Origin: Olleya sp. Hel_I_94
GTDB taxonomy: Bacteria; Bacteroidota; Bacteroidia; Flavobacteriales; Flavobacteriaceae
Assembly (NCBI RefSeq): GCF_007827365.1
Contig: NZ_VISI01000002.1
Span: 2,795,001 to 2,859,000 of the forward strand
DNA length: 64,000 nucleotides
Direction: 5' to 3'
Shown here: piece after piece, positions 3,839 to 24,380 of the stretch
Layout: the number at the start of each line of letters is the position of its first letter
Position numbering within the stretch: position 1 is the first letter of the stretch
Notes under the pieces: generated by a model
Seen by the model: only the letters and a program-made list of their open reading frames with translations
The model's database searches: none
Told to the model about the DNA's origin: nothing
Program-made: the position numbers and the translations under genes

Positions 3839-3998
3839 ATATAACAGAATATTAATCTGTATAATTTAATATTATATGAATTATTTTCTGTATAATTAAT
3901 AAAAATTTAATTTTTTAGAAAATTATTCCGTTTTGTTTGTTTCTAAAATATTTATTTTGCAATATTTGTACTCACAAAGTTCAAAAACTTACTGAAAT

Positions 3999-4118
3999 GT
4001 TATCAAGAAAGGTGGAGGGATTAGACCCATTGAAGCCTTAGCAACCCTTAGACTTACTAAGAAGGTGCTAAATTCTACTTAATTTTCGATTCATTAATCG
4101 ATACATTGGATAGATAAC
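3999..4118 (+). promoter_or_regulatory. SAM-I (S-box) riboswitch upstream of metY
   Basis: The sequence shows the classical S-box conserved blocks in order: GTTATCAAGAAAGGTGGAGG, GATTAGACCCATTGAAGCC, TTAGCAACCC, GAAGGTGCTAAATTC, then GATAAC, which closes P1 with GTTATC (3999-4004 with 4113-4118). The variable P4 arm sits around 4085-4105. SAM binding would shut down the downstream methionine operon. Recognition is by conserved blocks only, but they are very characteristic. Confidence 0.93.
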
Positions 4119-4120
4119 TA

Positions 4121-8096: not shown

Positions 8097-10801
8097 TGGA
8101 CGACTGCGACTGTCAAAAATATTTAACGCTTTCTGGTTTAGAACCCTTAATTGTAACTCCAGAAAGTAATTTTATAAACGTAGGAGAGCGAACCAATGTT
8201 ACAGGTTCTAGAAAGTTTTTACGTTTAATAAAAGAAGAAAAGTATACCGAAGCTTTAGCTGTAGCAAGAGATCAGGTAGAAGGTGGTGCACAAATTTTAG
8301 ATGTCAACATGGACGAAGGTATGTTGGATGGCGTTTATGCGATGACTACTTTTTTAAATCTCATTGCTTCAGAGCCAGATATTTCCAGAATCCCTATAAT
8401 GATTGATAGCTCTAAATGGGAAATTATTGAGGCTGGTTTAAAGGTGGTTCAAGGTAAATCTGTTGTAAATTCTATAAGTTTAAAAGAAGGAGAAACCGAG
8501 TTTATTCGTCAAGCTAAACTAGTAAAACGTTATGGAGCTGCTGTAATTGTAATGGCTTTTGATGAAAATGGTCAAGCAGATACGTATAAGCGTCGTATTG
8601 AAATTTGTGAACGTTCTTATAAAATATTGGTTGATATTGTCAATTTTCCTCCACAAGACATCATTTTTGATCCCAATATTTTTCCGGTTGCAACAGGAAT
8701 GGAAGAACATCGTAAAAATGCATTAGACTTTTTTAATGCTACAAAGTGGATTAGACATAATTTACCATTGGCTAATGTGTCTGGTGGCGTAAGTAATGTG
8801 TCCTTTTCTTTTAGAGGAAACAATACTGTGCGTGAGGCTATGCATGCTTCGTTTTTGTTTCATGCCATAAAAAACGGAATGAATTTAGGAATTGTAAACC
8901 CAACGATGTTGGAGATTTATGATGAAATTGATAAGGAATTATTACAGTGCGTTGAAGACGTTTTGTTTGACAGACGTGAGGATGCTACTGAGCGTTTATT
9001 GGAGTTTGCCGAAACCGTAAAAGGCAATAAAAAAGAAACTACAGAAACGGTTCAGGAATGGAGAAATACCGAGTTGCAAAGCAGGATTACACATGCTTTA
9101 GTAAAAGGGATTGATACGTTTATAATTGAAGATGTTGAAGAGGCAAGACAATCTGTTTCACGACCAATTGAAGTTATTGAAGGTCATTTAATGATTGGGA
9201 TGAGTGTAGTTGGAGATTTGTTTGGAAGCGGAAAAATGTTTTTGCCACAAGTAGTAAAATCGGCTAGAGTCATGAAAAAAGCTGTAGCGTATTTACAACC
9301 ATTCATTGAGGCTGAAAAAGATGGAAAACAAGCCTTTGCTGGAAAAATTTTAATGGCTACTGTAAAAGGAGATGTACATGATATTGGTAAAAATATTGTG
9401 AGTGTAGTTTTAGGATGTAATAATTACCAGATTATAGATTTAGGTGTTATGGTTCCACCAGAAAAAATTATTGAAACAGCTATAAAAGAACAGGTTGATA
9501 TTATTGGCTTAAGTGGTTTAATTACACCTTCATTAGACGAGATGGTTTATGTGTCCAAAGAAATGGAAAAACAAAACCTAAATATACCATTAATTATTGG
9601 TGGTGCAACGACGTCTAAAGCACACACGTCGGTTAAAATTGCACCTCATTATAAAGACGCTGTGGTACATATTAATGATGCCTCAAGAGCTGTAACTGTT
9701 GTTGGTGAATTACTAAATAAAAATAATGTTGTTTATAAGGAGCAAATTAGAGAAGAATACGATGTGTTTAGAGAAAAATTTTTAAACAGAACCAAACAAA
9801 AAGACTACATAAGTATTGAAGAGGCTAGAAAAAGAAAGTATAAAATAGATTGGCAAACCTCTAAAATTGTAAAGCCAAAACAATTAGGAATTCAAATAAT
9901 CGAAGATTTTGATATTACAAAATTAGAAGCGTTTATAGATTGGTCTCCATTTTTTAGAAGTTGGGATTTGCATGGTAAATATCCAGATATTTTAACAGAT
10001 AGCGTGGTTGGTACTCAAGCAACAGATTTGTTTATCGACGCTCAAGAATTATTAAAAAGAATTTTTGACGAAAAGCTATTAAAAGCAAAAGCCATCTTTG
10101 GGTTGTTTCCTGCTAATACCATAAATGATGATGACGTTGAAGTAAGTTTGTCACCTCGAGCGCAGTCGAGAGGTCTTACAAGTGAAGATAAAATTAAATT
10201 CCTAACCTTACGTCAACAATTAAAGAAAAGAGAAGGTGTGCCTAACCATGCCTTAGCAGATTTTATTGCTCCAAAAGAAACAGGAATACAAGATTATATT
10301 GGTGTTTTTTGCGTGTCTACTGGTTTTGGTACAGCAGAATTAGCAGAGCAGTTTGAAGCCGATAATGATGATTATAATTCGATTATGATTAAAGCGTTAG
10401 CAGATAGATTAGCCGAAGCTTTTGCGGAATATTTACACAAAGAAGTAAGAACAAAACATTGGGCTTATGCACAAGATGAAAGCTTAACTAACCAAGAATT
10501 AATTAAGGAAAATTATAACGGAATCCGTCCAGCTCCTGGTTATCCTGCGTGTCCAGATCATTTAGAAAAACAAACCATTTGGAAGCTATTAAATATAGAA
10601 GAAAATATTGGTGTAAAACTTACCGAAAGTCTTGCTATGTGGCCTGCAGCAAGTGTAAGTGGTTATTATTTTGGTAATCCTGAGGCTAAGTATTTTGGCT
10701 TAGGAAAAATCACGAAAGATCAATTATTGGATTATTCAAAACGAAAAAATATTAGCATAGAAGAAGCTACTAAATGGCTAAACCCAAATTTAGCGGATTA
10801 G
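8096..10801 (+). CDS. metH: Methionine synthase, folate-, B12- and activation modules (split MetH, part 2)
   Basis: The remaining three modules of MetH (901 aa): the pterin-binding domain ([14 protein letters not shown], about 25-300), the cap plus B12 domain with the cobalt-ligand motif DVHDIG (D426, H428, G431), and the SAM-dependent reactivation domain (about 590-901) with RTKHWAY and [14 protein letters not shown]. It transfers the methyl group from methyl-THF, made by the downstream metF gene, to homocysteine bound by the first half. Residues about 685-693 read LSPRAQSRG, encoded by a palindromic repeat (10153-10174) that sits in frame between DDDVEV and the conserved TLRQQ segment; this is not part of normal MetH. 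Confidence 0.95.
10153..10174 (+). repeat. Palindromic repeat inserted in frame within metH
   Basis: GC-rich palindrome with arms CTCGA (10155-10159) and TCGAG (10166-10170) around GCGCAG, flanked by ACC and GGT. It stands out against the A/T-rich gene. It resembles the 'cgagcgcagtcgag' type repeats I recall as dispersed between genes of many Flavobacteriaceae; no second copy is in this window. It is read through without stop as LSPRAQSRG. Confidence 0.6.
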
Positions 10802-10802
10802 T

Positions 10803-10919
10803 GTGTTAGCGATTGATGTGGCATCCTTTTTACGTCAGTTCGAGTAATACGACGTTAGGAGTATTGTATCGAGAACAAGTAAAAAGATATAACGGAAAGC
10901 GCGACCCTTGTGGTAACGC
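10803..10919 (+). repeat. Dispersed structured repeat, copy A (between metH and metF)
   Basis: This gap carries an element with nested inverted repeats: outer GTGTTA (10803-10808) with TAACGC (10914-10919, one G-T pair), middle CTTTTTAC (10826-10833) with GTAAAAAG (10879-10886), and an inner imperfect arm around AATAC/GTATT (10846-10865). Its ends, TTAGCGATTGA and AGCGCGACCCTTGTGGTAACGC, recur inverted at 31535-31625 while the middle differs. It is noncoding in all frames checked. I believe it belongs to a repeat family common in Flavobacteriaceae, of unknown function. Confidence 0.7.
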
Positions 10920-20186: not shown

Positions 20187-20216
20187 TTTGTTATATCATT
20201 TTATTAGTTACTTTAG
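20187..20216 (+). promoter_or_regulatory. Promoter of the aromatic amino-acid operon and its leader
   Basis: TTTG (20187-20190), 18 bases, then TACTTTAG (20209-20216), a one-mismatch match to TAnnTTTG. It places the transcript start about 10-15 bases before the leader-peptide ATG at 20233. Confidence 0.55.
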
Positions 20217-20232
20217 CAATATTATTATAAAC

Positions 20233-20310
20233 ATGAGCACAATAAACAATACATATTTTAGCTGGTATTATTTCTTTTTTAACAAAAGGAACGAGACGCT
20301 GTATATGTAA
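20233..20310 (+). CDS. Aromatic-rich leader peptide of an attenuator
   Basis: A 25-codon reading frame beginning MSTINNT and then YFSWYYFFF, so eight of nine consecutive codons are Tyr, Trp or Phe, followed by NKRNETLYM and TAA. It lies between a promoter and a perfect terminator hairpin, and upstream of pheA, tyrA and DAHP synthase genes. This is the pattern of a ribosome-mediated transcription attenuator, as in the enterobacterial pheA and trp leaders. The peptide itself presumably has no function beyond sensing charged tRNA-Phe/Tyr/Trp. Confidence 0.85.
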   Translation: MSTINNTYFSWYYFFFNKRNETLYM

Positions 20311-20342
20311 TTTAGCAACATATATTTTTTAAAAAAGTCTCG
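20292..20342 (+). promoter_or_regulatory. Antiterminator of the aromatic attenuator
   Basis: CGAGAC (20292-20297), within the end of the leader-peptide gene, can pair with GTCTCG (20337-20342), which is also the 5' arm of the terminator. A second hairpin, TATATGT (20302-20308) with ACATATA (20318-20324), fits inside this pairing. A ribosome stalled at the aromatic codons leaves CGAGAC free and favours this fold; a ribosome reaching the stop codon covers it and lets the terminator form. Confidence 0.75.
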
Positions 20343-20364
20343 ATATATATCGAGACTTTTTTTT
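20329..20364 (+). terminator. Attenuator terminator
   Basis: AAGTCTCGATAT-ATATCGAGACTT (20335-20358) is a perfect 24-base palindrome with flanking A tract and a run of eight T's, a textbook intrinsic terminator placed between the leader peptide and pheA. Confidence 0.88.
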
Positions 20365-20426: not shown

Positions 20427-21254
20427 TTGATAAAATCAGTAGCTATACAAGGTATTAAAGGATCATTTCATCACATTGTGTCTCAAAATTATTTTCAGAC
20501 TAATGTTAGTATTGTTCCGTTTTTGTCTTTTGACCAAACAGTGGAAAGTGTCCTTAATAAACAGACAGATGCAGCAATAATGGCTATTGAAAACTCAATT
20601 GCAGGCTCCATTATACCTAATTATGCGCTAATTGATACTAATAATTTACACGTAGTAGGAGAGTATTATTTAGATATTCAACACAACTTAATGGCTTTGC
20701 CAAATCAAAAGATTGAGGACATTACAGAAGTATATTCTCATCCTATGGCTTTGTTGCAATGTAAAGCCTTTTTTAAGCAATATCCTCATATTAAACTTAT
20801 AGAAGATAAGGATACTGCTGAGGTTGCGGAACGTATCCATAATAAACAATTAAAAAATACAGGAGCTATTGCAAGTACTTTAGCTGCGCAGATATTTGAG
20901 CTAGATATTTTAGCAAAAAGCATCCAGACTATTAAGCATAACGAAACCCGTTTTGTTATTGTAAAACAAGATAATTCTGAAATCGCTGAAGCGGAAATTA
21001 ATAAAGCGTCTATAAAATTTGAATTAGACCATAAAAGAGGAAGTTTAGCAACCATTTTAAATGTCATGAGTGATTGCAAATTAAACTTAACAAAAATACA
21101 ATCTTTGCCAATCATTGAAACTCCTTGGAAGTATGCCTTTTTTGTGGATGTAACCTTTCAAGATTATCAAGATTTCAAAAAAGCAAAATCTATAATGGAT
21201 ATTATGGCCACCCATTTTAAAGTTATAGGTCAATATAAAAATGCGAAAATATAA
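20427..21254 (+). CDS. pheA: Prephenate dehydratase
   Basis: Converts prephenate to phenylpyruvate, the phenylalanine branch. The 275-aa protein shows IQGIKGSFHH at the N-terminus, the IENSIAGSI motif, the catalytic NETRFVIV (TRF motif) and a C-terminal ACT domain (KRGSLATILNVMSDCKLNLTKIQSLP) for phenylalanine feedback. A TTG start at 20427 is used; no ATG is available near the conserved N-terminus. First enzyme gene of the operon behind the attenuator; its stop overlaps the next start as TAATG. Confidence 0.93.
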   Translation: MIKSVAIQGIKGSFHHIVSQNYFQTNVSIVPFLSFDQTVESVLNKQTDAAIMAIENSIAGSIIPNYALIDTNNLHVVGEYYLDIQHNLMALPNQKIEDITEVYSHPMALLQCKAFFKQYPHIKLIEDKDTAEVAERIHNKQLKNTGAIASTLAAQIFELDILAKSIQTIKHNETRFVIVKQDNSEIAEAEINKASIKFELDHKRGSLATILNVMSDCKLNLTKIQSLPIIETPWKYAFFVDVTFQDYQDFKKAKSIMDIMATHFKVIGQYKNAKI

Positions 21255-22393
21255 TGAAAGTAGCTAACAGATTACATAGTGTAGAGGAATACTACTTTTC
21301 TAAAAAATTAAAGGAAGTCAATGCTTTAAAAGCAGCAGGAAAACCTATAATTAATTTAGGAATTGGAAGTCCAGATTTACAACCATCAAGCCAAGTTGTT
21401 GCAGCGTTAACAGCAGGTTTATTAGATATTAATGCACATAAATATCAAAGTTATCAGGGCTTGCCAGAGTTTAGACAAGCTATTTCAGAATTTTATAAAA
21501 AACAATATCAAACACAGATTAATCCAGATACAGAAGTGTTACCATTAATGGGAAGTAAAGAAGGGATTATGCATATTTCTATGGCTTTTTTAAATGAAGG
21601 TGATAGTGTCTTGATTCCTAATCCAGGCTATCCTACATATGCAGCTGTGACTAAATTAGTGCAAGCTAATCCTATCGCTTATAATTTAGATGAATGCAAT
21701 AATTGGCTACCTAATTTAGACGAGATTAAAACTTTAGATTTAAGTAAAGTTAAACTAATGTGGATCAGTTATCCACATATGCCAACAGGAGCAAAGGCTA
21801 AAAAAGCAGATTTAAAAAAGTTAGTAGATTTTGCTAAAAAGCATGATATATTGCTAGTAAATGACAACCCTTATAGCTTTATTTTAAACGATAATCCGAT
21901 AAGTATTTTAAACATAGAAGGCGCAAAAGAGGTGTGTTTAGAGTTAAACTCACTTAGCAAAACTTTTAATATGGCTGGTTGGAGAGTAGGTATGGTGTTA
22001 GGAAGTCAAGACCATATTAATGCAGTTTTAAAAGTGAAAAGCAATATGGATTCTGGTATGTTTTATGGCATTCAAAAAGGCGCAATTGCAGCACTAGAGA
22101 GCTCACAAGATTGGTTTGATAATTTAAACAAAGTGTATAAAACACGTCGTAAATTAGTATGGCAATTGGCAGATAAATTAAACTGTACGTATGATAAAAA
22201 TGCCTCAGGTTTATTCGTTTGGGCAAAAACACCAGAAGGTTATAAATCAGAAACATTTATAGATACATTGTTACACGATAAAAGCCTATTTATAACACCA
22301 GGAACGGTTTTTGGAACACAAGGCGAAGGATATGTAAGATTTTCGTTATGTGCAACGACTGACCAAATAGAAGAAGCAATAGCAAGAGTATGA
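21254..22393 (+). CDS. Class I/II aminotransferase, probably for aromatic amino acids
   Basis: A 379-aa PLP aminotransferase with PTGAKAKK, NDNPYSFI and the lysine motif LSKTFNMAGWRVG. Lying between pheA and tyrA with overlapping genes on both sides, it most likely transaminates phenylpyruvate and 4-hydroxyphenylpyruvate to Phe and Tyr. Related enzymes are also annotated as aspartate or LL-DAP aminotransferases, so the substrate is inferred from context. Confidence 0.9.
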   Translation: MKVANRLHSVEEYYFSKKLKEVNALKAAGKPIINLGIGSPDLQPSSQVVAALTAGLLDINAHKYQSYQGLPEFRQAISEFYKKQYQTQINPDTEVLPLMGSKEGIMHISMAFLNEGDSVLIPNPGYPTYAAVTKLVQANPIAYNLDECNNWLPNLDEIKTLDLSKVKLMWISYPHMPTGAKAKKADLKKLVDFAKKHDILLVNDNPYSFILNDNPISILNIEGAKEVCLELNSLSKTFNMAGWRVGMVLGSQDHINAVLKVKSNMDSGMFYGIQKGAIAALESSQDWFDNLNKVYKTRRKLVWQLADKLNCTYDKNASGLFVWAKTPEGYKSETFIDTLLHDKSLFITPGTVFGTQGEGYVRFSLCATTDQIEEAIARV

Positions 22394-23244
22394 TACAAAA
22401 TATATACATAATTGGTGTAGGATTAATTGGTGGTAGCTTGGCTTTGGATATAAAAAATAAGCGTCCAGAAGTTTCAGTTTACGGTATAGATAATTCTGAA
22501 GACCACTTAAATCAAGCTTTGGAGCTGGGTGTTATAGACCATAAAGCAGTTTTGGAGGATTTAGATAAGGCAGATTTAGTTGTGTTAGCTATTCCTGTGG
22601 ATGCTTCAGTAATTGTTTTGCCTCAAGTTTTAGATAAAATATCAGATTTCACGTTAGTTGCAGATGTTGGTTCGACTAAGTCAGACATATGTAAAGTTGT
22701 AGAAAATCATAAAAGACGACGTAATTTTTTAGCAATGCATCCTATTGCAGGAACGGAGTTTTCTGGACCAAAAGCAGCAATCAGAAATCTGTTTAATCAA
22801 AAAACAAATATTATTTGCGAAGTAGAAAAAACAGCTTTTAAATTACAAGAAAAAGCGGTTAGTTTATTTACAGATATTGGGATGCGCATGCGTTACATGA
22901 ATCCCGAATCGCACGACAAGCATATTGCTTACGTATCGCATTTATCACACATTAGTGCGTTTATGCTAGGTAAAACGGTTATTGAAAAAGAAAAGAATGA
23001 GCGTGATATATTTGATATGGCAGGTTCAGGGTTTGAAAGTACTGTAAGATTAGCCAAAAGTAGTCCTGCTATGTGGACACCAATTTTTAAACAGAATAAA
23101 ACTAATGTAGTCGAAACGTTAGACGATTACATTGCTAATTTAACACAGTTTAAAAAACTGATAGAAAATGATGATTTTGAAGGTGTTTTTAACGAAATGA
23201 AAGACACTAATTACATAAAACAAATATTAAACGGAATACAATAA
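22390..23244 (+). CDS. tyrA: Prephenate dehydrogenase
   Basis: Oxidatively decarboxylates prephenate to 4-hydroxyphenylpyruvate for tyrosine. The 284-aa protein has an N-terminal Rossmann fold (IIGVGLIGGSLALDI, 7-21) and the HPIAGTEFSGP and SHLSHISAFMLG blocks with the catalytic histidines. No ACT or chorismate mutase domain is attached; the latter is on the next gene. Its ATG overlaps the previous stop (ATGA). Confidence 0.93.
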   Translation: MIQNIYIIGVGLIGGSLALDIKNKRPEVSVYGIDNSEDHLNQALELGVIDHKAVLEDLDKADLVVLAIPVDASVIVLPQVLDKISDFTLVADVGSTKSDICKVVENHKRRRNFLAMHPIAGTEFSGPKAAIRNLFNQKTNIICEVEKTAFKLQEKAVSLFTDIGMRMRYMNPESHDKHIAYVSHLSHISAFMLGKTVIEKEKNERDIFDMAGSGFESTVRLAKSSPAMWTPIFKQNKTNVVETLDDYIANLTQFKKLIENDDFEGVFNEMKDTNYIKQILNGIQ

Positions 23245-23297: not shown

Positions 23298-24380
23298 ATG
23301 GAAAATAAAAAAGAAATGAGAAACTGGTTGGATGACATGAAGTTAGATCATCCATTAGTAATCGCTGGACCATGTAGTGCAGAGACAGAAGAGCAAGTAT
23401 TAAAAATAGCACACGAGCTAAAAGATACTGATGTTAGCTATTTTAGAGCAGGTATATGGAAACCTCGTACAAGACCAGGAATGTTTGAGGGTGTTGGTGC
23501 TTTAGGTTTAAATTGGCTTAAAAAAGTTAAAGAAGAAACAGGTATGAAAACCTGTACTGAAGTTGCTAATGCTGCACACGTAAAATTGGCTATCGAAAAT
23601 GATGTTGATTTACTATGGATTGGTGCACGATCTACAGTTAGTCCATTTATCATGCAAGAATTAGCAGATGCATTAGCTGGAACAGATAAAATTGTATTGG
23701 TTAAAAATCCAGTAAATCCAGACTTAGCGTTATGGTTAGGTGGTATTGAAAGATTATATACTGCAGGTATTAAAAACTTAGGTGCTATCCATAGAGGATT
23801 TTCTACTTACGAAAAAACGAAGTATAGAAATATTCCGGAATGGCAAATTGCTATCGAGTTTCAAAACAGATTTCCTGATTTACCGTTAATAAACGATCCG
23901 TCGCATATTACTGGAAAACGTGATATGGTTTTTGATGTCTCTCAAACTGCATTAGATTTAAATTTTGATGGATTAATGATTGAAACGCATACAGATCCTG
24001 ATAACGCGTGGAGTGATGCTGCACAGCAAGTTACACCTACATCATTAATCCAGATGATGGTAGATTTAAAGATTAGAAAAGAGTCTGATCCAGAAGCAGA
24101 ATACAATCAAGAGTTAACTAACCTAAGAGCACAAATTGATGTTGTAGATAATCAGATTATCGAAGCTTTAGGTAAGCGTATGAAAATTGCTGACGGAATT
24201 GGAGGTCTTAAAAAAGAGAAAAACGTTGCAGTTTTACAAAGCAAACGTTGGAACGAGATTTTAGGAAAAATGGTTTTAGAAGGTGAGTCTAAAGGTCTAA
24301 GTGAAGAGTTTATCTTAAAAATGTTTAAGGCAATTCACCAAGAATCAATTAATCATCAAGAAAAAATTATAAAAGGATAA
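23298..24380 (+). CDS. Bifunctional DAHP synthase / chorismate mutase
   Basis: A 360-aa fusion. Residues 15-265 are a type I-beta DAHP synthase (VIAGPCSAETEEQ, GIWKPRTRPGMFEG, KNPVNPDLALWLGG, INDPSHITGKRD), the entry step of the shikimate pathway; residues about 268-360 are an AroQ-type chorismate mutase (LRAQIDVVDNQIIEALGKRM) making prephenate for the other operon genes. The domain order, mutase at the C-terminus, is common in Bacteroidota; the mutase domain often mediates feedback. The operon ends at the terminator 24396-24433. Confidence 0.93.
   Translation: MENKKEMRNWLDDMKLDHPLVIAGPCSAETEEQVLKIAHELKDTDVSYFRAGIWKPRTRPGMFEGVGALGLNWLKKVKEETGMKTCTEVANAAHVKLAIENDVDLLWIGARSTVSPFIMQELADALAGTDKIVLVKNPVNPDLALWLGGIERLYTAGIKNLGAIHRGFSTYEKTKYRNIPEWQIAIEFQNRFPDLPLINDPSHITGKRDMVFDVSQTALDLNFDGLMIETHTDPDNAWSDAAQQVTPTSLIQMMVDLKIRKESDPEAEYNQELTNLRAQIDVVDNQIIEALGKRMKIADGIGGLKKEKNVAVLQSKRWNEILGKMVLEGESKGLSEEFILKMFKAIHQESINHQEKIIKG

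Follow-up and report, generated by a model that had tools for sequence, protein, structure and literature searches.

A predicted leader-peptide attenuator reading phenylalanine and tyrosine codons upstream of the pheA operon in Olleya sp. Hel_I_94 and its relatives

The pheA-aminotransferase-tyrA-DAHP synthase operon of Olleya sp. Hel_I_94 is very likely under the control of a transcription attenuator in which a translating ribosome gauges the supply of charged tRNA-Phe and tRNA-Tyr. The case is built on sequence and comparison: a leader gene, two competing helices, the joint change of these helices among relatives, the spacing between leader and helix, and the gene order. The element is very probably genuine and belongs to a known kind. 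New here are its spread beyond the family, the joint helix change, the spacing rule, and a correction: its conserved signal is Phe and Tyr rather than Trp. All coordinates refer to the window, the 64,000-nucleotide stretch of DNA that was analyzed (NZ_VISI01000002.1, positions 2,795,001 to 2,859,000 of the forward strand).

The operon comprises four genes on the forward strand: pheA, encoding prephenate dehydratase (20427..21254, initiated with a TTG codon); a gene for a class I/II aminotransferase (21254..22393); tyrA, encoding prephenate dehydrogenase (22390..23244); and a gene for DAHP synthase fused to a type II chorismate mutase (23298..24380). Each name was assigned from a Pfam match above its cut-off (for pheA, that to PDT, the ACT match being below cut-off), and several NCBIfam matches were below theirs. 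In 109 of 110 pheA loci, a set that includes some genomes twice, an aminotransferase tblastn match shared the pheA locus (within 3.8 kb); the exception was L029. A search of the whole genome (3.56 Mb, 2 contigs) for DAHP synthase gave one further match, a KDO8P synthase, and the second DAHP synthase family had no match in it. The pathway's only entry enzyme thus appears to be encoded by this operon. Upstream of the leader, gldA lies on the opposite strand, so no neighboring rightward gene ends at the terminator described below.

The leader peptide gene occupies 20233..20310 (+). It has 25 codons, beginning with the ATG at 20233 and ending with a TAA stop at 20308-20310, and its product is MSTINNTYFSWYYFFFNKRNETLYM. 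The aromatic block of the leader, YFSWYYFFF, was read from 20254-20280 (+), the last block codon being 20278-20280. Leader and block had both been named in the original prediction and are present at these bases, but the block had been credited with 5-6 Phe/Tyr codons; it contains seven, together with one Trp codon. A further Tyr codon (codon 24) is located 3' of the CGAGAC motif discussed below. Upstream of the leader is a Bacteroidota-type promoter-like site (20188..20216, +), in which TTG (20188-20190) is followed, after a gap of 18 nt, by TACTTTAG (20209-20216), which ends 16 nt 5' of the leader ATG. The Bacteroidota promoter consensus is TTK-N17-22-TANNTTNG. Of the 137 leader-terminator units compared below, 113 have a match to it no more than 75 nt 5' of the leader ATG; shuffled sequences gave 3.8 on average.

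Between the leader and pheA, the 24 bases of AAGTCTCGATATATATCGAGACTT (20335-20358) form a perfect palindrome, which A/T pairs lengthen to a 14-bp stem (20331-20344/20349-20362) and whose end is overlapped by eight T residues (20357-20364). Region 3 is the 5' arm of this terminator (20331..20344, +), and region 4 is its 3' arm with the run of eight T (20349..20364, +), as read from sequence and folding. Region 2 of the antiterminator, hereafter arm A, is the CGAGAC at 20292..20297 (+), which begins 11 nt past the last Phe codon of the block. Its partner, GTCTCG (20337-20342), lies in region 3 and is common to antiterminator and terminator, and a second copy of CGAGAC is found inside the terminator 3' arm (20349-20362). 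An inner hairpin (20301..20325, +) is nested in the antiterminator, with GTATATGT (20301-20308) pairing with ACATATAT (20318-20325). The palindrome with its T run, the competition between CGAGAC and GTCTCG, and a TATATGT/ACATATA pairing nested inside had all been proposed from the sequence earlier, and each was recovered here, the last as the inner hairpin.

Folding showed that both helices are stable beyond chance: the terminator (region 3:4) at -15.9 kcal/mol (z -7.3) and the antiterminator stretch 20290-20343 (region 2:3) at -12.2 kcal/mol (z -3.3). A 1:2 protector fold (20250..20309, +) is also predicted, in which TACATAT (20250-20256) pairs with ATATGTA (20303-20309) and, inside, the Phe codons pair with AAAAGGAA; when no ribosome is present, this fold would tie up half of CGAGAC. 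At -12.8 kcal/mol, it was not significant in the window sequence alone (z -0.9 relative to dinucleotide shuffles). Among the relatives, at least half of arm A was paired with the leader in the predicted folds of 124 of 137 units, and the 1:2 fold had a mean z of -2.1 relative to mononucleotide shuffles in the 35 of the 137 units tried. Rfam covariance models at gathering score gave three matches in the window, none of them near 20233-20364.

From these elements, we infer how promoter use, ribosome stalling, antitermination in the cell, and dependence on amino acids would fit together. Transcription would start just 5' of the leader. Scarcity of Phe or Tyr would make the ribosome stall in YFSWYYFFF, and if the last Phe codon occupies the A site, the front of the ribosome would reach about 20290. 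Arm A (20292-20297) and the inner hairpin would then be free, pairing with GTCTCG (20337-20342) would occur before the terminator 3' arm is made, and polymerase would continue. When Phe and Tyr are plentiful, the ribosome would reach the stop codon, cover about 20290-20320, and mask arm A, whereupon the terminator (20331-20364) would form and transcription would end 5' of pheA. With no ribosome, the leader would fold 1:2 and the terminator would form too. For this stall and stop geometry we used general ribosome footprint sizes, which place a stalled ribosome at 20260-20290 and a finishing one at 20290-20320. The latter spans 20292-20297, in keeping with the earlier idea that the leader stop is so placed that a ribosome finishing the peptide covers CGAGAC. 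When a ribosome positioned at the last Phe codon was included in the folding model, the complete RNA favored the terminator plus the inner hairpin (-20.9) over the antiterminator of the shorter transcript (-11.6). As the full RNA prefers the terminator, antitermination must be kinetic, that is, decided during RNA synthesis, as in classical cases. Over the 137 units, the two competing stretches were about equally stable (medians -13.5 and -13.4), with the terminator stronger in 64.

We examined 170 pheA-upstream regions, all from the window's class, made up of 30 loci, 80 named loci, and 60 stretches. The named loci were the best 80 of 232, and several of their genomes were also among the 30 loci; the stretches comprised 30 from outside the window's family, 8 class and 9 order matches, and 5 + 8 family matches. 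A leader was scored when an ATG-started frame of 10-45 codons had at least six F/Y/W within 10 residues. By this measure, an F/Y-rich leader was present in 151 of the 170 regions, and 137 distinct leader-terminator units were kept. The hairpin finder, which requires a T run, detected a hairpin in 146 of the 151 leader-bearing regions, and in the other five one was visible by eye. A comparison with relatives had been suggested with the original prediction, and it turned out as that prediction expected: aromatic leaders are conserved, and the competing stems change jointly, as described below.

At this threshold, nineteen regions were without an ATG leader: two family members (L015 and L029) and 17 of the 47 regions from outside the family. 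Outside the family, L150 has a leader started with GTG instead of ATG, and L127, L135, and L155 score five in 10, under the threshold. L029 had no leader within the 420 nt searched and, as noted, no aminotransferase match in its locus. In L015, which counts as a miss in the tally, the leader, CGAGAC, and the terminator are present farther upstream, displaced by a repeated insert. By eye, this insert (L015:1000-1410) is a repeated unit of about 110 bases, each copy with a G+C-rich hairpin, that separates attenuator and pheA.

We give hardly any credence to an ordinary terminator preceded by a chance U-rich frame with no regulation. In its favor, Phe and Tyr codons come up readily in so A+T-rich a region, and the A and T runs flanking the hairpin might let it act bidirectionally. 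However, when equal 300-nt stretches were compared, leaders occurred in 146 of 165 on the forward strand and in 2 of 165 on the reverse strand, and 10 dinucleotide shuffles of these stretches gave a mean of 2.6. Both controls contradict a chance frame. Moreover, gldA is divergent, so that no upstream gene needs the terminator, and the competing arms change jointly.

The joint change of the arms carries much of the argument for an attenuator. In each unit, the sequence from the last aromatic codon to the terminator was searched for the stretch that pairs best, and this was taken as arm A, a choice that favors pairing; with this choice, its pairing exceeded mononucleotide shuffles at p < 0.05 in 111 of 137 units and at p < 0.005 in 44, and the helix between arm A and the terminator 5' arm appeared in the minimum-energy fold of 136. 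An inner pairing of at least 4 bp was found in 135 of 137. Because the search for arm A selects the best match, more weight falls on a swap test, in which arms were exchanged among 25 terminator-arm types represented by one unit each. Own partners scored 17.7 on average and swapped partners 11.8, and the observed sum was reached in 0 of 10,000 permutations. The own partner was best or tied in just 12 of the 25 types, partly because arm types are shifted copies of each other. Among eight types that have no G+C-rich 5-mer in common, the means were 17.7 and 10.4 (again 0 of 10,000), and seven types paired best, or equally well, with their own partner. The pair is CGAGAC/GTCTCG here, AGGATTGT/ACAATCCT in Flavobacterium, and, outside the family, GCCGGGACT/AGTCCCGGC and GAGCGGTC/GACCGCTC.

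The position of arm A follows a simple rule. It starts 5-14 nt past the last aromatic codon (sd 1.6; 11 nt in 59 of 137 units), whereas the end of the stop codon ranges from -6 to 34 nt beyond the arm A start (sd 8.4; 137 units). This suggests that, wherever the stop codon falls, arm A begins roughly where a ribosome halted at the last aromatic codon has its leading edge. With the same footprint sizes, a ribosome holding the last aromatic codon in its A site would leave 5 nt or more of arm A exposed in 134 of 137 units; a ribosome at the stop codon would overlap arm A by at least 3 nt in 131 and leave it unmasked in 6. It is very improbable that the nascent peptide, and not charged tRNA, causes the stall in the manner of an arrest peptide. 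Conservation of the tail KRNETLYM/V, which follows the block, in near relatives favors such a stall, but the tail varies by genus together with the RNA arm it encodes, and in other cases the arm is found only at the stop codon or beyond it. The features preserved are aromaticity and spacing. We rejected the arrest peptide since the tail is not preserved across genera. The joint change of the arms and the spacing rule together lend good support to the view, already put forward for this site, that it follows the logic of enterobacterial pheA and trp attenuation.

The hairpin might also work mainly on translation, hiding the pheA start with or without termination, and we consider this improbable. 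In 43 of 96 distinct units from the 30 + 80 loci, the PheA match starts no more than 15 nt from the hairpin end (as in hairpin-TTTTTATG), so the hairpin could also impede translation initiation there, and a mixed effect on termination and translation may operate in relatives with a close pheA start. In the window, by contrast, pheA begins 62 nt downstream of the T run, and the T-run hairpins in 146 of 151 leader-bearing regions are what termination predicts, although the finder demands a T run. L012, L014, L016, and L039 are among the units whose PheA match starts near the terminator hairpin.

We then return to the attenuator itself and to the amino acids that it reads. Phe occurs in all 137 leaders, Tyr in 136, and Trp in 81; relative to the proteins of the window, the leaders are enriched 4.4-fold in Phe, 3.9-fold in Tyr, and 3.0-fold in Trp. 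Trp is found in 9 of 9 units of the genus, in 65 of 81 other family units (nearly all titled Flavobacteriaceae or its genera, a few merely Bacteroidetes, Bacteroidia, or Flavobacteriales bacterium), in 0 of 19 units of a mostly-Flavobacterium set (L084-L112), and in 7 of 28 outside the family. Several family members lack it or have Phe/Tyr in its place, for example L013, L020, L048, and L051. As a conserved regulatory codon, the Trp codon thus holds within the genus alone and not across the relatives. In addition, trpE of this genome, whose best NCBIfam match is anthranilate synthase component I, below cut-off, has its own leader upstream (L114:694-906), MNTILNHTWWWNNRNQTS with a WWW run and a terminator-like hairpin after it. 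Of 30 trpE regions, 29, this genome's among them, have a leader with two or more Trp in six residues, the miss being L191. Given these counts and the separate leader of trpE, Phe and Tyr are the common and conserved signal of the pheA leaders. The mixed Phe/Tyr/Trp reading of the original prediction stands for its first two amino acids and is not established for the third.

Trp may nevertheless be an added input in the window's lineage, a possibility raised by its presence throughout the genus and by the recurrent site of the codon: for 61 of the 83 Trp codons, the last aromatic follows at a distance of exactly five codons. It is possible, though doubtful, that Phe, Tyr, and Trp are all sensed by the leader; the Trp codon would then add a signal of its own, since no DAHP synthase other than that of the operon was found in the genome. 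The single DAHP synthase of the genome, the enrichment of Trp, and its frequency in the genus and in other family units agree with this, and a ribosome stalled at Trp-11 (about 20245-20275) would free arm A. Three members of one genus within the 81 (L174-L176) have leaders very like those of Flavobacterium in which Trp is the last aromatic of the block; they run counter to a clean Flavobacterium rule on Trp and favor three-way sensing. Against it stand the absence of Trp from the mostly-Flavobacterium set, its rarity outside the family, its loss or replacement in family members, the Trp-rich leader of trpE, and the weak signal that a single early Trp codon would give. A plain sensor of three amino acids was rejected on the uneven presence of Trp among the groups and on the separate trpE leader.

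Attenuators of pheA (pheL) and trp (trpL) in enterobacteria carry codons for the end product in the leader and use competing 1:2, 2:3, and 3:4 pairings. The Olleya element shares these features, with its terminator 5' of the first gene; unlike them, it appears to read Phe and Tyr for a four-gene operon, is A+T-rich, and has a Bacteroidota-type promoter-like site, so that the likeness is one of plan, not of sequence kinship. Lopatovskaya et al. in 2010 reportedly gave, to judge by the title, a comparative prediction of amino-acid operon attenuation in bacteria. By term search, neither Bacteroidetes nor pheA occurs in the main text of Naville and Gautheret 2010 (PMC2965389). The nearest precedent comes from Guerin et al. 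(2021; PMC9723704), who describe 64 structured 5' regions in Flavobacterium psychrophilum. They report strong clues that amino-acid operons are attenuated by leader peptides in that species and place 5' elements before pheA and hisG in other genera of the Flavobacteriaceae too, without an Rfam match. The F. psychrophilum pheA element and ours thus precede the same gene, and leader-peptide attenuation was proposed there for amino-acid operons. In contrast to the present account, the one main-text section on pheA in that paper has no alignment, codons, helices, or spacing, and where it deals with Flavobacteriaceae, we traced the element to other families of the order and class. The earlier remark that no detailed description was known must be tempered, as a conserved pheA 5' element and clues of attenuation were already in print (PMC9723704). 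In the literature searched, in which subscription journals are thinly covered, we found no drawing of a Bacteroidota pheA attenuator. Short frames resembling attenuating leaders are mentioned in the available text of a Bacteroides thetaiotaomicron transcriptome study (PMC7366714), and Korolev-type leader-gene statistics (PMC4833913) treat Bacteroidetes leader genes for reinitiation, pheA being unmentioned in the text available.

Other biosynthetic genes of this genome have comparable leaders. Upstream of hisG (L116 reverse strand, 1161-1350), a leader, MNFIQLHHHHFHTSTQAS, is followed by a terminator-like hairpin and is likely a His attenuator. The trpE (WWW) and hisG (HHHH) leaders resemble that of pheA in being short, with a run of cognate codons, a terminator, and then the first gene, and differ from it in reading other amino acids. 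A Thr/Ile-rich frame, MKKRHTIFTLIMTITLLG, lies 5' of thrA, a homoserine dehydrogenase-domain gene (L209 reverse strand, 511-640), and no clear terminator was seen after it. By eye, ilvD of this genome has no leader.

One flavobacterium would thus have Phe/Tyr, Trp, His, and perhaps Thr/Ile switches, two of them common to the relatives examined. Since leader-peptide attenuation needs a ribosome close behind polymerase, this set would be evidence for coupling at these leaders, and such switches could serve as simple elements for measuring transcription-translation coupling in flavobacteria. Flavobacteria start translation largely without Shine-Dalgarno pairing, and coupling and such initiation are less studied there. 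We also advance a broader proposal, in which one attenuator architecture defined by spacing, not by sequence, runs the Phe/Tyr branch across much of the class of Olleya, and in which the Trp codon kept in Olleya-like lineages makes it a three-way aromatic sensor for the only DAHP synthase of the genome. Taken as a whole, this proposal is tentative and has a real but minor chance of being right; if true, leader translation would have to be tightly coupled to transcription in organisms that start translation with little use of Shine-Dalgarno pairing. The near-fixed spacing of arm A 3' of the last aromatic codon offers a rule for finding similar switches without sequence likeness.

Other regulatory RNAs were observed in the window. 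A SAM-II riboswitch (895-953, -) and a SAM (S box) riboswitch (3997-4120, +) lie about 3 kb apart, and a Flavo-1 RNA match above gathering score is found at 10801-10910 (+).
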